Origin: Oscillospiraceae bacterium
GTDB taxonomy: Bacteria > Bacillota > Clostridia > Oscillospirales > Oscillospiraceae
Reading direction: 5' to 3'
Assembly (NCBI GenBank): GCA_902761055.1
Contig: CACWIS010000007.1
Coordinates: 1-63,795, forward strand
DNA length: 63,795 nucleotides
A program made the position numbers and the translations under genes. Shown one piece after another: positions 1 to 7,798 of this stretch. The notes under the pieces are model-generated. The model saw only the letters and a list, made by a program, of their open reading frames with translations, ran no database searches and was not told the DNA's origin. Numbering within the stretch: position 1 is the first letter of the stretch; every line of letters starts with the position of its first letter.

Positions 1-631
1 GAGGATCCCGGACGCGACGAAGACGTACCAGTTCAAAAACGCGAAACAGGAGTCGTCCTCCGTCGTCACGAGAAAGTGCCCGAGGAAGTAGTTGGCGGCT
101 GTGCTTCCCCGAAAGACAAAGGCAAGCGGCCCGCCCAGCGCGGACAGGGCCAAACCGATGAGAAAGATATGCGCCGCTTTCAGTTTCAACTGCCTGAACA
201 GCCCTGTGGCGATCAGCGCCAGGCCGGCAAAGTGAAGGATATCCTGCACAACAAGCGCATACACGGTTTCTTCCATGAACTCGCCCGAAAGGAGCCCGTC
301 CGCCAGCGCATAGATCCCGTAGCGGAGGAAATTGAGGACGAAACCTAAGATATAAAGCCGGACGCCACGGCGAATCAGCTCGGCCGGGCTGTTCCGGCGG
401 GAGTACACGACCCCCACGCCCATGGCGAACATAAAGGCGTGGGCCACGGCCAGGTAATCTCCTAAAACAATATCAGGGCAGATGCTCTCCCAGCCGGATG
501 GCGCAGTGGCAGAGGATCATACTGACCGTCGCCGCCGCCCGCAGGAGATCCAGCTCATATGAGCGCGAGGTCCGGAGTTCTTTTTCTGAAGAAATCATAT
601 GGTCTATCAGCTCTTTCTGGTCACGCCGCAT
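1..631 (-). pseudogene. Frameshifted, edge-truncated membrane acyltransferase-like gene
   Basis: The minus-strand reading frame opens near 631 (a second ATG lies at 598) and gives an N-terminus with ELDLLRAAATVSMILCH, which resembles the first membrane helix of the DUF1624/heparan-alpha-glucosaminide acetyltransferase-like or acyltransferase-3 families. It stops at a TGA at 473-475. One base out of frame, the protein clearly continues (LGDYLAVAHAFMFAMGVG, then more hydrophobic helices) to the window edge at base 1. Removing one base around 474-478 would restore a continuous protein. Either the gene is a pseudogene or the assembly has a single-base error. A consensus promoter lies at 738-766. 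The true 3' end is outside the window, and the exact family is uncertain. Confidence 0.6.
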
Positions 632-737
632 CCTCCGGGGATTCGCTGCTGATCGGGGAAGTGAAATACGTATTCGGGTAAGACTCGTTTTCCGGGGTGA
701 AGCGCCGCCGTTTCTCTTCCGGCGGACGGAAAAAAAT

Positions 738-766
738 ATTTTATGCCGCCCCTGCTGCGCTGTCAA
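738..766 (-). promoter_or_regulatory. Sigma-A promoter for the acyltransferase-like gene
   Basis: On the minus strand a TTGACA box (761-766) is followed after 17 bases by TAAAAT (738-743). It points toward the gene that starts near 631 and leaves a leader of about 100 nt. Confidence 0.7.
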
Positions 767-830
767 CAGAGTTTTTGCCGGTCGGGACACCGAAGAGACA
801 TCATCACCCCGCAGGCATAACAGCACACCT

Positions 831-867
831 GTTTCGCAAAATCATTATACTTACAAAAATGCGAAAC
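831..867. promoter_or_regulatory. Inverted repeat around a minus-strand TATAAT; possible operator
   Basis: GTTTCGCA (831-838) and its exact complement TGCGAAAC (860-867) flank a 21-base AT-rich core holding a minus-strand TATAAT at 844-849. The arrangement looks like a repressor site over a -10 box, but no good -35 is visible. No regulator gene is nearby, so this is only a candidate. Confidence 0.3.
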
Positions 868-931
868 GGATAGCTGGCGGTCGATCTGAAACAGCGATAC
901 TGCTCAACCAAGTGCCTATGGAAGGAAACGC

Positions 932-966
932 AAAAAGGCTCCTCCCGTTTTTTCGGAAGGAGCCTT
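932..966 (-). terminator. Rho-independent terminator of the structured RNA
   Basis: An 11-bp stem with one mismatch, GGCTCCTTCCG / CGGGAGGAGCC on the minus strand, encloses a short A-rich loop and is followed by TTTTT. Confidence 0.85.
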
Positions 967-1196
967 GTGCGATCCGTATCAAGTGGATGCGCGGTGACCG
1001 CCGGAGGCAAGGGACGCGCTTTGCCTGCCGGAGATCAGAATCGGTTGCTCGCCGGGCCCAAATGCTGGACCATTCTGACGATTGTTGCCCGCCCAACGTC
1101 CGGCTACTACGCCGCCGGCGGCTCGCAAGTAACTTGGTCATGCTTCGCGGGTTAAGGTGCCGATCACACCGATGGGATGCCGCCCATCTCCAGTGA
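932..1196 (-). ncRNA. Free-standing structured RNA of about 265 nt, possibly raiA-type
   Basis: The minus strand has an autonomous transcription unit with no convincing reading frame: a consensus promoter (1202-1230) puts the start near 1194, and a strong terminator hairpin with a T-run ends it at 932-966. The interior is full of short helices on the minus strand, including GATGGG/CCCATC, GGTG/CACC, TCAGAAT/ATTCTGA and GGCAAAGCGCG/CCCTTGCC-type pairings, separated by purine-rich joints. A promoter-RNA-terminator unit of this length and complexity fits a stand-alone riboregulator. The raiA RNA of Clostridia is a leading candidate on size and context, and 6S RNA is an alternative. Identity is inferred, not established; existence of an RNA gene is much more secure. 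Confidence 0.7.
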
Positions 1197-1201
1197 GTCG
1201 G

Positions 1202-1230
1202 ATCATACTCCTGTCCCCGGGATTTGTCAA
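1202..1230 (-). promoter_or_regulatory. Sigma-A promoter of the structured RNA
   Basis: On the minus strand TTGACA (1225-1230) is followed after exactly 17 bases by TATGAT (1202-1207). This near-consensus promoter drives the noncoding unit, with a predicted start near 1194. Confidence 0.8.
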
Positions 1231-1322
1231 TGAACAAACTGTGAATTTTTATGTTAACCGCAATGATCCGTCCAACTGCTCAAAAACGGGGCGTCGGCGT
1301 CGAACTGAAACGCAAACCCGTG

Positions 1323-1351
1323 TTGATGGTTCACCGCTTTTGTGATAAACT
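1323..1351 (+). promoter_or_regulatory. Promoter of the zinc-ribbon cassette
   Basis: TTGATG (1323-1328), a 17-base spacer and TAAACT (1346-1351) lie about 70 bases before the first gene of the three-gene cassette. Confidence 0.5.
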
Positions 1352-1423
1352 GTTATTGAGTCGGGGGATACGCCGGCCATGACGCTTCCCGGTATCGACG
1401 GGGAACACAGGAGAACGCTGAAC

Positions 1424-1909
1424 ATGAAACAGACAGAATGCCCGAACTGCGGCGCGGTCTTCGACGCGAAAGAGACCAGGTGCCCGTACTGCTCCTATAT
1501 CAATCCGGAAGGCGCCGAGGCGAAATACCTGAAGGATCTGGAAGACAGCCGGCGGAATCTGGACGCCGTGGACGACCAGGTCCGGTCCGGATACCGCAAG
1601 GAAATCAGAAAAGGCGCCGGAACAGCGCTGAAAACCGTGCTGATCATCGCGCTGATCCTGGCTGTCGTGATCGGCGGATTCATCTATGCGGAACACCGGC
1701 TTTATGATGACGACAGGGAAGACTATGCGGCGGAACTGGCCTGGGAGCATCAGCGCTTTCCGCAATATGACGGCATGCTGGCGGCCGGGGAATACGAAGC
1801 GCTGATGTCGGCGATCGCCGAAGAAGGAGAAGCCCACGACGTCTGGAACTGGGAGCACTACGATGAGTTCATGGAGATCGCGGACGGGCTTTGGGGGGAT
1901 GAGCCATGA
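1424..1909 (+). CDS. Zinc-ribbon single-pass membrane protein (161 aa)
   Basis: The start at 1424 follows a CAGGAG ribosome-binding site; an upstream in-frame ATG at 1379 has none. The protein begins with a four-cysteine zinc ribbon (C6-P-N-C9 and C20-P-Y-C23), then a charged linker, one hydrophobic helix at about residues 54-75, and an acidic, aromatic-rich C-terminal segment of about 85 residues. The topology suggests a cytoplasmic zinc ribbon and an extracytoplasmic tail. It overlaps the next gene by four bases (ATGA), so the two are translationally coupled. I do not recognise a named family; zinc-ribbon membrane proteins of this type are common in Clostridia and have no assigned function. 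It is the first gene of a three-gene cassette. Confidence 0.8.
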   Translation: MKQTECPNCGAVFDAKETRCPYCSYINPEGAEAKYLKDLEDSRRNLDAVDDQVRSGYRKEIRKGAGTALKTVLIIALILAVVIGGFIYAEHRLYDDDREDYAAELAWEHQRFPQYDGMLAAGEYEALMSAIAEEGEAHDVWNWEHYDEFMEIADGLWGDEP

Positions 1910-2661
1910 AGTGTCAGCACTGCGGGAACAACCTGAATATCGAGGAAAACTACTGCCCCTACTGCGGCCAGCCGAATCCCTTCGCGGTAAAGCACCAGGA
2001 GGCCATGCGCCGCTTCGAAAAGGACTATGAGCGCACCAGGAAGGACGTGCTTGAGCAGTCGTCCCGGTTCAACCGGCATACCGTGCGGATCACGATCCTT
2101 GCCGTGCTGGTCGCGCTGATCGCGGCGGCGGCGGTTTTCCTGATCAAAGCGGACGATATCCGCATGTGGCGGATGGAAAAGCGCATGGAGGCCCGGGCGG
2201 AGGTGCACAGGGAGGCGATCGGCCGCCTGATGGACGACCGCGATTATCTGGGCGTTTACTCCTATTTCTCCCAAAACGACATCTGGTTTACCGACGCTTT
2301 CAGGGACCTTGACACGGTCAGTGACAGCTGCTTCCAGTACAGGCAGTTCTATACGAACCTGATGATGCTGCGGGCAAAAAAGGCCGATCCGGACGCCTAC
2401 CGCTACTACAGCGAATCGGAGCTTCTGGAGAATATGGCCGGGGAGATCTACAGGATCAACGAGTGCCTGAAGCCACAGTCCTATAACGAAGCGGCATATA
2501 CGCCGGAAAAAATGGCGTTTGTGGAGGGCGTGCGCGACCGGGTGGAAACCATGGCGGAAAGCTACCTGGGCCTGAGCCGGGAGGAAGCGCTGGCAACGCG
2601 CGAGATGACTGTGGCCAGGATCAACGTGCTGCTGGAGGACAGTTATGGGGAAGAATCTTAA
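1906..2661 (+). CDS. Zinc-ribbon single-pass membrane protein (251 aa)
   Basis: The protein has the same plan as its upstream neighbour but is larger: a zinc ribbon at the extreme N-terminus (C3-x2-C6 and C17-P-Y-C20), a charged region of about 35 residues, a membrane helix at about residues 62-82, then about 165 residues of mainly alpha-helical, tyrosine-rich sequence likely outside the membrane. It starts inside the previous stop codon (ATGA) and overlaps the next gene by 17 bases, so all three are probably made as one unit. The paired zinc-ribbon architecture suggests duplication and divergence within the cassette. Function is unknown. Confidence 0.8.
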   Translation: MKCQHCGNNLNIEENYCPYCGQPNPFAVKHQEAMRRFEKDYERTRKDVLEQSSRFNRHTVRITILAVLVALIAAAAVFLIKADDIRMWRMEKRMEARAEVHREAIGRLMDDRDYLGVYSYFSQNDIWFTDAFRDLDTVSDSCFQYRQFYTNLMMLRAKKADPDAYRYYSESELLENMAGEIYRINECLKPQSYNEAAYTPEKMAFVEGVRDRVETMAESYLGLSREEALATREMTVARINVLLEDSYGEES

Positions 2662-3112
2662 AAACGGAGGGAAAACGGGCAGCCGCGGCGATAAGCTCTT
2701 CAAGATCATCCTGATCCTGCTGTCCCTGGCCCTGGTCGTGATGATCCTCGTCGCCGCCTCGACCGTCCGGAAGGAGTCCTACCGGTATTATTCCAGGCCG
2801 AACGAGCTCCTGTGGATGATCCGGAACGGAGACTACTCCGACGCGGTCACCTCCATGTATGATAATATCGCGCTCGGAGAGACTCCGGCAAAGAACGAGG
2901 ATTACTCAGTCCCCTACGCCATACTGGAGTACTATGAGGCGGCGTCTCTGCTGAAGGCCTACACCGGTGCGGACACGTCCGATCCGGGCAGGAAAGCCGA
3001 ACTGGAAGCGGCCGCCGAACAATGCAGGGCCAAGATGAAAGATGCGCGCAGCCGCATGGGCGACCTGGAATTCTTCGCGCCGGAAATCGACGCGTTGTTC
3101 CTGGAGCCGTGA
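2645..3112 (+). CDS. Single-pass membrane protein, third member of the cassette (155 aa)
   Basis: A short basic N-terminus is followed by one long hydrophobic helix at about residues 20-40 and an extracytoplasmic domain of about 110 residues with tyrosines, acidic residues and predicted helices. Unlike its two partners it lacks the zinc ribbon. It starts 17 bases inside the preceding gene, and a strong terminator follows 46 bases after its stop, so it closes the operon. The C-terminal domain has the helical, TPR-like look of the previous protein's tail, but no family is recognised. Confidence 0.75.
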   Translation: MGKNLKNGGKTGSRGDKLFKIILILLSLALVVMILVAASTVRKESYRYYSRPNELLWMIRNGDYSDAVTSMYDNIALGETPAKNEDYSVPYAILEYYEAASLLKAYTGADTSDPGRKAELEAAAEQCRAKMKDARSRMGDLEFFAPEIDALFLEP

Positions 3113-3158
3113 ATTGCTGCCGCTGCGGGTCCGGAGTCTGACCTGCGCTTATATGAAT

Positions 3159-3203
3159 CCCCCGGCCCGGCGAGCGATGCTCGCCGGGCCGGGGGATCTT
3201 TTT
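3159..3203 (+). terminator. Strong terminator closing the zinc-ribbon cassette
   Basis: A perfect 17-bp GC-rich stem (3159-3175 and 3179-3195) with a three-base loop is followed by ATCTTTTT. Confidence 0.9.
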
Positions 3204-3294
3204 CTGCTTGCTGATTGTTTGCTTGTTCAGCTTGCACATGCGTCGCCTTGATCGGAACCGATGCTTGCCATAGACGGCGATATTTTCAAACGAG

Positions 3295-3343
3295 ATATTG
3301 AAATGTGCGATTTTTCGTGTATAAAATATATTGAAATGTGCGA
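3295..3343 (+). promoter_or_regulatory. Promoter inside a 16-bp direct repeat
   Basis: TTGAAA (3298-3303), a 16-base spacer and TATAAA (3320-3325) form a promoter for the lipoprotein gene at 3487. The -35 lies in the first copy of a 16-bp repeat (ATATTGAAATGTGCGA at 3295-3310) whose exact second copy is at 3328-3343, 33 bases later, just past the -10. Equal spacing near three helical turns suggests an operator pair. The patch is AT-rich compared with its surroundings. Confidence 0.5.
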
Positions 3344-3486
3344 ATTGCATGCTGCAAATAACTCTGAGTTCACGGGCGACGAAAAGATCGAAATGGTTGC
3401 CAAACGTGTTACGGAACGGTTTAGGCCCGTTTTCCAGGAACTGGCGAAATGATTCGGTTCTTGAGAAACGTTCAGGAGGGATCGAC

Positions 3487-4311
3487 ATGAAAAAAAGAAG
3501 CTTTTCCGCCGCGATCGCGCTTTTGATGCTCGGCGCGCTGCTCCTTGCGCTCACGGGATGCGGGATCGGAAGGAGTCTCCGCATCGACACGGCCGCGGCT
3601 TCGCGGGACGACGTGACGGTGACGCTGAAAAAGGCGAGGGCCATAAGGAGGAACGTCCCACCCCGCTATGAGTACTCCTTCAGCGGGACCATCGAGAACA
3701 ACTCCGACGAGGGCGTGATGAAGGTCATCTACACCTTCTCGCTTTATGACAAGGACGGGAATGAATTCCGCAGCTTCGGCGACACCTACGACGGCGTGGA
3801 CGAGGCGATCCCGCCGCACGGCAAGGTCGAGTTCTCCCTCAAGGGCGTCAAATGGGGCGCGCAGTCCGTTCCGGCCTCGGTGTCGATCGGCATCGGCTCG
3901 GTGCAGACGGAGACGGAGCTGCCGCCTGCTGCCATCCCGCAGCCGGGAGAGCCCCTCTATCTGGTCCTCGGCGACGCGAACCTGGCCGATATCCGTGAAA
4001 ACCCGCCCGTGGAGCTCGCCTTCCACGTTGATCAGGGCGGCTACGGGCGCACGGCCACCTTTGAAAAAGGAGCCGAGCTCGACAGGGCGGTCGAACTGCT
4101 CTGCGCGATCAAGATCGGCGCGGAGACCGGCGAATGGGTCACGGACAACTACAACTGGATCCGCCTCAGCTGGGAGGACGGGTCTGAAACCTATATCAGT
4201 CTGAACCTGCGCAATCTCGAACTCAACATCCACTCCAGCCCCCGCATGTTCACGCTGGAACACCTGAATGAATTCTGGGTCTACGCCGAGGAATATCTGA
4301 AGGAGGATTAG
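3487..4311 (+). CDS. Secreted lipoprotein with a FxLYD-like N-domain (274 aa)
   Basis: The start at 3487 has a CAGGAGG site six bases upstream. A lysine/arginine N-terminus, hydrophobic core and lipobox LTGC place the lipid anchor at Cys25. Residues of about 35-145 read as a beta-sandwich of the FxLYD type (stretches such as SGTIENNSDEGV and YTFSLYDKDGNE), commonly found in Firmicute lipoproteins. The remaining 120 residues form a second domain that is tryptophan-rich and unrecognised. The gene is monocistronic, with its own promoter and a downstream hairpin. Function is unknown; substrate binding or envelope monitoring are possibilities only. Confidence 0.8.
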   Translation: MKKRSFSAAIALLMLGALLLALTGCGIGRSLRIDTAAASRDDVTVTLKKARAIRRNVPPRYEYSFSGTIENNSDEGVMKVIYTFSLYDKDGNEFRSFGDTYDGVDEAIPPHGKVEFSLKGVKWGAQSVPASVSIGIGSVQTETELPPAAIPQPGEPLYLVLGDANLADIRENPPVELAFHVDQGGYGRTATFEKGAELDRAVELLCAIKIGAETGEWVTDNYNWIRLSWEDGSETYISLNLRNLELNIHSSPRMFTLEHLNEFWVYAEEYLKED

Positions 4312-7510: not shown

Positions 7511-7798
7511 TCAGCCGAGGAAGGAGGCGTTGACCCAGCCGGATCTGCCGCTTCTGGGGTTGAAGACCCAGACGTAGGTCTTTCCGTCGAAGGCGACCGT
7601 GTAGCCTCCGGTGATCTGCAGCTTGTCGCCGTTGTAGCTCTCGCTGCCTCTGATCTCATTATTGTAGTCATAACCGGGCGCGCTGCGCAGGGCAAGGTAG
7701 CCGCTCTTCAAACCCCGGACCGTGGCCCAGCCGTCCTTGCCGACGCCGCCGGCAACGTTCTCGAGATCAAAGTCGTTCTGCTTTACGATTTCCGCCAT
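7511..7798 (-). CDS. Double-glycine-leader peptide with a bacterial SH3 domain (95 aa)
   Basis: The start has an AGGAGGAAATC site directly upstream. Residues 1-18 (ending FDLENVAGG) match the double-glycine leader seen on peptides exported and trimmed by PCAT-type ABC transporters, with cleavage expected after G18. The rest reads as one SH3b domain: LALRSAPGYDYN, then GDKLQITGGYTV, and the closing YVWVFNPRSGRSGWVNASFL. SH3b domains usually bind peptidoglycan, so this may be an exported wall-binding protein or bacteriocin-like factor. No processing transporter or immunity gene is in the window. It is monocistronic, with an extended -10 promoter and its own terminator. The leader call rests on resemblance only. 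Confidence 0.75.
   Translation of the reverse strand: MAEIVKQNDFDLENVAGGVGKDGWATVRGLKSGYLALRSAPGYDYNNEIRGSESYNGDKLQITGGYTVAFDGKTYVWVFNPRSGRSGWVNASFLG

Follow-up and report, generated by a model that had tools for sequence, protein, structure and literature searches.

Type III toxin-antitoxin loci are laid out with the RNA first and a terminator between the RNA and the nuclease gene, and PBECR4 is not among the three type III toxin families named in the available portion of the source (PMC5086642). A similar order, with a structured RNA, a terminator and then the gene of a toxic protein, is found in AbiF/RCd22 of C. difficile (abiF RNA, RF03085), whose RNA is reported, in the partial text at hand, to neutralise its protein in cis and in trans (PMC12373285). 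Among free-standing clostridial RNAs, raiA is described in excerpts of PMC11751092 as having eight helices, a P1 ending in a three-way junction and a pseudoknot, pk-1, that joins the P3 loop to a loop lying between P5 and P6. The PBECR domains are presented, in the accessible part of PMC5512222, as predicted RNases of phages and mobile elements. A literature search with preprint servers and most subscription papers outside its range yielded no mention of PBECR4, and in the partial texts that it returned the drum RNA (RF02958) was named only as an Rfam example, with no function. The drum RNA is said to have been described in a report on candidate structured RNAs.

The DNA analysed here, called the window, is a stretch of 63,795 nucleotides from an Oscillospiraceae bacterium (contig CACWIS010000007.1). 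At 1230-931 on its minus strand it carries an autonomous RNA gene with a promoter, a transcript of about 264 nt and a terminator (Table 1). Neither a promoter nor a terminator is proof of a gene when taken singly, because both types of site exceed expectation in positions 1-4000 of the window (five promoter-like sites versus 1.8 expected and ten terminator-like sites versus 3.7). When the RNA was folded as a single sequence, a z of -1.92 was obtained and 12 of 200 shuffles were equally good. Since this fold is weak and no Rfam 15 family matched over its cut-off, the case depends on the relatives of the RNA. The element TTCACAGTTTGTTCA recurs with variations, as seen by eye, in most of the long-form (A) relatives, and the 21-mer has no second site in the window's genome (G000) at up to 3 mismatches. 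A Pho box or regulon was considered for the TTCACA...TTCA element and set aside, no regulon being shown because the motif is unique in G000 at that tolerance. Two ORFs overlap the RNA, one of 128 aa on the same strand (1237-851) and one of 232 aa on the other (498-1196). On its 3' side and in the same strand, there are an ORF of 117 aa (826-473) and a second near-consensus promoter-like site, TTGACA-17-TAAAAT, at 766-738 (-). Elsewhere in the window, positions 3157-3197 (+) hold a hairpin that resembles a very strong terminator, with 19 pairs and a T-run after it, and a 95-aa ORF at 7511-7798 (-) begins MAEIVKQNDFDLENVAGGVG and carries, by eye, a double-glycine leader like that of a secreted peptide.

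Table 1. Features of the RNA gene in window coordinates, and loci with an RNA in front of a PBECR4 gene
Feature	Position	Strand	Remarks
Upstream element TTCACAGTTTGTTCA	1225..1245	-	runs into the -35 TTGACA
Sigma-70 promoter, TTGACA (1230-1225), 17-nt spacer, TATGAT (1207-1202)	1202..1230	-	11/12 consensus matches
Expected transcription start	about 1194	-	placed from the promoter
Predicted transcript, about 264 nt	931..1194	-	ends inferred from promoter and terminator positions
Conserved core of the RNA family	1036..1192	-	models R1, R2
P1 hairpin GAUGGG-CGGCAU-CCCAUC	1171..1188	-	98.7% of cells paired; both-side changes in 4/6 pairs
P2 hairpin GGUG-UGAUCGG-CACC	1156..1170	-	100% of cells paired; both-side changes in 2/4 pairs
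Strand s0 of pseudoknot 1, within the P2 loop	1165-1160	-	
Strand s1 CCCGC, pairs with the P6 loop (pseudoknot 2)	1147..1151	-	97.5% of cells paired; both-side changes in 2/5
P4 hairpin GCAUG...CUUGC	1125..1143	-	one U-U mismatch in the window copy; both-side changes in no pair
P5 hairpin GCC-GCCGGC-GGC	1111..1122	-	RNAalifold; both-side changes in 1/3 pairs
5' strand of pseudoknot 3, within the P5 loop	1118-1114	-	
3' strand of pseudoknot 3, GCCGG	1100..1104	-	taken as s2 equivalent; 89.7% of cells paired; both-side changes in 4/5
P6 hairpin GUUG-GGCGGG-CAAC	1084..1097	-	loop pairs with s1 (pseudoknot 2); 100% of cells paired; both-side changes in 3/4 stem pairs
P7 variable hairpin	1050..1080	-	71.1% of cells paired; both-side changes in 4/5 pairs
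Strand s3 CCGAUU, pairs with the P2 loop (pseudoknot 1)	1039..1044	-	96% of cells paired; both-side changes in 2/6
P8 hairpin of the long form	995..1037	-	single-sequence folds of 3' tails
P9 hairpin GCG.AUCC...GGAU.CGC of the long form	969..992	-	single-sequence folds of 3' tails
Intrinsic terminator stem-loop, 13 pairs, then T-run	935..966	-	
Window-like RNA before PBECR4			L201, L206, L208, L211, L212, L213, L224, L228, L229, L231
Drum RNA before PBECR4			L199, L200, L202-L205, L210, L214-L216, L223, L226

Like raiA/ModT, the window RNA is free-standing, clostridial, compact and pseudoknotted, and the initial annotation had proposed a raiA type while allowing for a new class. Clostridia as hosts, a free-standing gene, about 200-260 nt of length and two or more pseudoknots are what a diverged raiA/ModT RNA would lead one to expect, but such an origin is extremely unlikely. 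The raiA model (RF03072) gave no match at E<=10 on positions 850-1300 and exceeded its cut-off in none of 60 genomes, the window's own included; sub-threshold matches occurred in seven of the 60, none of them where our model R1 finds the window-family RNA. Besides, the helix order of the window RNA is another, as far as the partial published descriptions of raiA permit the comparison. The raiA type was accordingly abandoned, while the new class gained ground: Rfam 15 has no family at its cut-off on the window RNA or at the RNA in 18 relative loci, and covarying homologues exist. No match to the drum RNA was found on the window RNA or on the relatives scanned. Two other sub-threshold matches were recorded, one to anti-hemB (30.6 bits against a cut-off of 49.5; E 0.0013), immediately beyond the RNA core of L012, and one to DUF3800-I elsewhere in L084.

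The predicted fold of the window RNA is made up of P1, P2, P4, P5, P6 and P7 and of three interlocking pseudoknots, followed in the long form only by the P8/P9 3' domain, which the short forms do not have. In an alignment of 26 representatives made with MAFFT (A3), 92.9% of 1061 cells were paired and 22 of the 43 pairs showed changes on both sides, values that none of 500 shuffles reached; the number of pair types was reached by 4 of 500. Sliding the fold by 1-3 columns left at most 47.0% of the cells paired and at most 10 pairs with both-side changes, a comparison that favours the drawn fold because the structure was derived from the same sequences. These counts are lowered by the two D-form rows L012 and L061, misaligned over P6, and by the C-form rows, which are shifted by one position at pseudoknots 1 and 3. 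Unaided, RNAalifold recovered P1, P2, pseudoknot 2, part of P4 and P5, and did not recover P6, P7 and pseudoknots 1 and 3. A separate parser required pairing in P2 and P6, so that its 60/60 for these two helices is by construction and the counts from the 26 sequences are used instead. In the window copy, the linker ahead of s3 is weakly A-rich. The loops of P8 are, by eye, self-complementary in many A and C forms (e.g. UCGCGA, GCGC), which could allow dimers.

Within the genus, blastn found the RNA in 12 of 60 genomes, the window's own included, which are 12 of the 37 genomes of its genus, and in none of the 23 genomes of other genera. A covariance model built from 13 sequences (R1) gave 64 matches in 50 of 101 genus genomes, again including the window's own; the match in G003 lies in a coding-like, ORF-like stretch and was rejected, leaving 49/101 genomes. 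Two weak matches, L095:990 and L113:6812, were excluded before the neighbour, parser, promoter, terminator and descriptor counts. An exact pattern scan retrieved 47 contigs, all of them from uncultured bacteria titled Ruminococcaceae, Oscillospiraceae, Clostridiales, Clostridia or Eubacteriales, and from ruminant hosts wherever the titles name a host. Four forms of the RNA were distinguished: A, long, with the P8/P9 3' domain; B, short; C, which adjoins two conserved neighbour genes; and D, minimal, with a core of 104-124 nt. In a table of 48 genomes and 62 members, which leaves out the member of G025, A and B occur together in 12 of the 48 genomes, and in G034 they stand in tandem. The long A and the short B are paralogous forms, often present in one genome.

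A promoter with at least 9 of 12 matches was found for 62/62 members (best site in the 60 nt before the core) versus 29 of 1063 random windows, and its distance to the core is characteristically 9 nt in A (20/21), 6 nt in B (29/31) and 8 nt in C (7/8). The upstream promoter elements differ between forms. In six of the eight C-form promoters (not L057 or L059) a perfect, operator-like palindrome, CACATAATGTG, was observed between -35 and -10. An intrinsic terminator was scored 3' of 49 of 63 members versus 41 of 394 controls, and several of the 14 members without one have, by eye, a hairpin with an interrupted stem before the T residues. Concerning the coding capacity of the locus, no reading frame is open through every core (the best one in 23 of 62) and the core lengths of the family differ modulo 3. 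With these results the initial view of an autonomous structured RNA gene without a credible protein is borne out, the promoter and terminator being present and the covariation check that it had called for having turned up homologues across the genus with conserved, covarying helices.

We then considered whether the RNA could be a leader or riboswitch that controls a downstream gene by termination. A compact, aptamer-like fold with a conserved pseudoknot from a loop to a 3' strand just before the terminator would suit such a role, as would the gene that follows the terminator in the PBECR4 loci described below and, in the window, the same-strand ORF at 826-473. A conserved co-directional downstream gene was however not found among 63 loci, as judged from crude ORFs and short flanks: no non-overlapping cluster of neighbour genes around the stand-alone copies covers more than 7/63 loci, and the clusters that cover more are spurious ORFs overlapping the RNA. 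The shared downstream gene of the C form points toward the RNA in 6/8 loci, where clustered, and the window has its second promoter-like site (766-738) 3' of the RNA. A leader function is thus very unlikely.

Individual copies depart from the common structure: L063 and L064, the two copies of G063, have lost P6, P7 and s3 and have kept promoter and terminator, and L050 and L051 carry an insertion of about 60-70 nt between P2 and strand s1. That the family is a decaying, functionless remnant of a former RNA-nuclease locus would agree with such clearly damaged copies as L063 and L064 and with the fact that roughly half of the searched genomes of the genus gave no match to the RNA. Against decay, dozens of genomes show compensatory changes, terminators and a fixed promoter spacing, and A and B are present together in 12/48 genomes; we regard this explanation as unlikely, if slightly less so than the leader.

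Beyond the genus, R1 found one sequence in another family of the order, L084, with an E of 4.5e-4 among 295 genomes, which is not significant alone. L084 shows the expected strand pairs and, by eye, a promoter and a terminator; its DNA had no blastn match in 78 other genomes, and it was not relisted by a search of 384 order genomes with a second model, R2, a set in which the inclusion of its genome is uncertain. R2, built from 26 genus sequences only, matched L195 and L196, which come from another order of the class, with 36.5 bits and E values of 3.6e-8 and 4.3e-8 per genome (391 genomes). In L084 and L195/L196 the P2 loop and s3 have changed together (AACUGA/UCAGUU, GACCGG/CCGGUC), and two GUYG-loop-CRAC units are present. 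Four of the six R2 matches in the family, 13 of 14 in the order and 2 of 5 in the class were taken as chance; 18 of these 19, all but L151, look like coding or unrelated DNA, and so does the R1 match of G137 in the order. As to a phage origin, the core had no blastn match in 50,697 phage records, and from two pattern scans of IMG/VR, which returned 38 and 1 stretches, R2 scored none as a member; one stretch, L168, reached 12.1 bits (E 0.14) away from the pattern.

At L195, a 220-aa PBECR4 protein (PF18813, E 2.2e-27) starts 72 nt after the RNA. PF18813 was found in 27 of 381 class genomes (29 places), in 2 of 101 genus genomes (3 places; the RNA is in 49/101) and at two places of phage phi1605, the sole phage record, of which one was examined; protein searches for PBECR4 relatives gave none in plasmids and none in viral contigs. 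Ten of the 33 PBECR4 places examined were assigned a window-like RNA directly upstream, two of them in the same genus and one in the phage. L212 and L213 hold the same RNA in two genomes. The two genus cases, in G094 (L228) and G013 (L229), are among the three PBECR4 places of the genus, and both genomes have a stand-alone window-family RNA in addition to the RNA-PBECR4 pair. The order promoter-like site, RNA, terminator (by eye) and gene was seen in all nine of the ten places that were mapped (all but L212); the promoter-like sites of the nine have 9-12 of 12 matches, counted with no control, and the 9/12 site of L213 is 47 nt off. From the end of the RNA to the start codon there are 48-72 nt in the seven places where the start is clear; for L229 and L211 it is uncertain. 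The protein of L228 had no solved relative below E 0.1 by sequence.

These RNAs share with the window RNA an order of strands in which the loop of the second hairpin is predicted to pair with a 3'-terminal strand and two more strands with hairpin loops; the hairpins are mostly GUUG-loop-CAAC and are followed by A-rich linkers. Among six aligned PBECR4-linked RNAs, 13 pseudoknot pairs form in 6/6, with both-side changes in 8/13, and P1 is paired in 69.4% of cells. Not all PBECR4 places carry the same RNA. Drum RNA lies directly upstream at or over its cut-off in 12 of the 33 and below it in 4, and it is therefore a second kind of RNA that goes with this gene family, which suggests that it may be the RNA partner of a PBECR4 nuclease. 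Seven places fall in neither group (L207, L209, L219, L220, L221, L222, L230); L221 has a 16.2-bit match to the model R3 of the window-like RNAs. By eye, L217, L218, L219 and L227 have a third, shorter type of RNA and a terminator before PBECR4; drum scores are 33.8-34.4 bits in L217, L218 and L227 (cut-off 43), and L219 has a sub-threshold Gut-1 match of 43.2 bits (cut-off 50).

Three features of type III loci were sought in these RNAs and at the window locus: 1) a pseudoknotted RNA, 2) tandem repeats and 3) a nuclease gene behind the terminator. The window RNA has three covarying pseudoknots and its own promoter, as ToxI, CptI and TenpI have. No tandem repeats were found in it by reading, its two loop-strand modules being of different sequence and not direct repeats; in the PBECR4-linked RNAs, also by reading, a unit comes in two near-repeat copies and no more, as is seen best in L206 and L224. 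As to the third, a search for PBECR4 found no such nuclease gene behind the window copy and no candidate in the rest of G000; one could be missing from the assembly because this is about 81% complete. The sequences support that the RNAs before PBECR4 have the layout that defines type III loci, as given in the available text on these systems, with promoter-like site, RNA, terminator and nuclease gene in the nine places mapped (terminators by eye), PBECR4 being rated a putative endoribonuclease by its PF18813 match. The best functional parallel would be AbiF/RCd22, which in the published extract has the same succession of structured RNA, terminator and toxic protein gene, but whose RNA motif (RF03085, in no Rfam match list here) and protein family (Abi_2) are different.

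The window RNA is likely related to the PBECR4-linked RNAs, a kinship that the bridging members support and that the window sequence by itself indicates weakly. An alternative, which we hold to be possible though on balance doubtful, is that the window RNA makes up a new class of its own, a regulatory or scaffold RNA that acts in trans and has a lifestyle like that of 6S or raiA, and that its likeness to the PBECR4 RNAs is a convergence of topology. Relevant to both is a model, R3, built from six of the ten PBECR4-linked RNAs only; it matched the other four and found the untrained L084 (2.4e-25), L195 (6.9e-24), phage L231 (2.7e-18) and L211 (2.2e-10). On the 63 window-family loci (220,014 bases), the best 10 of its 12 matches all fell on the family RNA, led by L012 with 33.7 bits (8.9e-8), the nine others having E values of 0.004-0.8. 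This reach, together with that of R2 from genus sequences to the PBECR4-linked L195 (E about 4e-8), argues against convergence, and so do the intermediates L012, L061, L060 and L084, which share P2, s1, a GUYG-loop-CRAC hairpin, the A-rich linker and s3. On the side of an independent class, R3 barely sees the window copy, which is among the 53 of 63 loci without a listed R3 match on the RNA and scored 10.3 bits (E 0.0014 for 601 bases) with filters off; G000 has no PBECR4 candidate; nothing in the PBECR4 RNAs evidently corresponds to P7 or to the 3' domain of the long form; and the upstream promoter elements vary between forms. Of the bridge L012, it is mainly the 3' half that aligns to R3, the 5' half being out of register.

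A topology descriptor, written after the sequences had been seen and with structures drawn from those same sequences, fits 55 of 62 window-family cores (the exceptions being L050, L051, L058, L059, L060, L063 and L064) versus 5 of 620 shuffles, and 8/8 PBECR4-type RNAs, among them L084 with no PBECR4 neighbour, versus 14 of 1600. For L195 its first matches use a hairpin other than the proposed one, and on 300-nt upstream stretches shuffles fit often, in up to 12/20. Pseudoknot 3 was equated with the local pseudoknot of the PBECR4 RNAs by topology, because P5 is GCC-loop-GGC and not GUUG-loop-CAAC.

In sum, the window RNA has a promoter, a terminator and covarying helices and pseudoknots, and it has no conserved protein, no widely shared neighbour and no Rfam family. 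Our preferred explanation, to which we give about an even chance, is that it descends from a nuclease-preceding RNA of the PBECR4 type whose nuclease gene was lost, a relation to nucleases that the initial annotation had not foreseen. The PBECR4 RNAs themselves would neutralise a putative toxic nuclease by folding into pseudoknots and binding it, with the PBECR4 protein arising from read-through of the terminator; silencing of this kind is proposed because of the analogy with type III systems and AbiF/RCd22. Once free of its gene, the RNA may have been kept as an antitoxin-like RNA that stands alone and acts in trans by binding a BECR-type nuclease, for instance one from a phage or another mobile element, or it may have been exapted, serving now in a role taken over from the former RNA-protein partnership. 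A bolder proposal, which we offer tentatively and as clearly less probable than the descent just outlined, is that PBECR4 together with triple-pseudoknot and drum RNAs makes up an undescribed type III class, and that Oscillospiraceae of the ruminant gut have domesticated its RNA half as a duplicated (A/B), promoter-regulated, free-standing antitoxin against the nucleases of phages and mobile elements.

The analysis adds a structured RNA family that is absent from Rfam 15. It also brings PBECR4 and the drum RNA under one hypothesis, according to which both would belong to RNA-controlled nuclease modules. In the genus of the window, a separate chromosomal gene with paralogues seems to have arisen from the RNA half of one such module.
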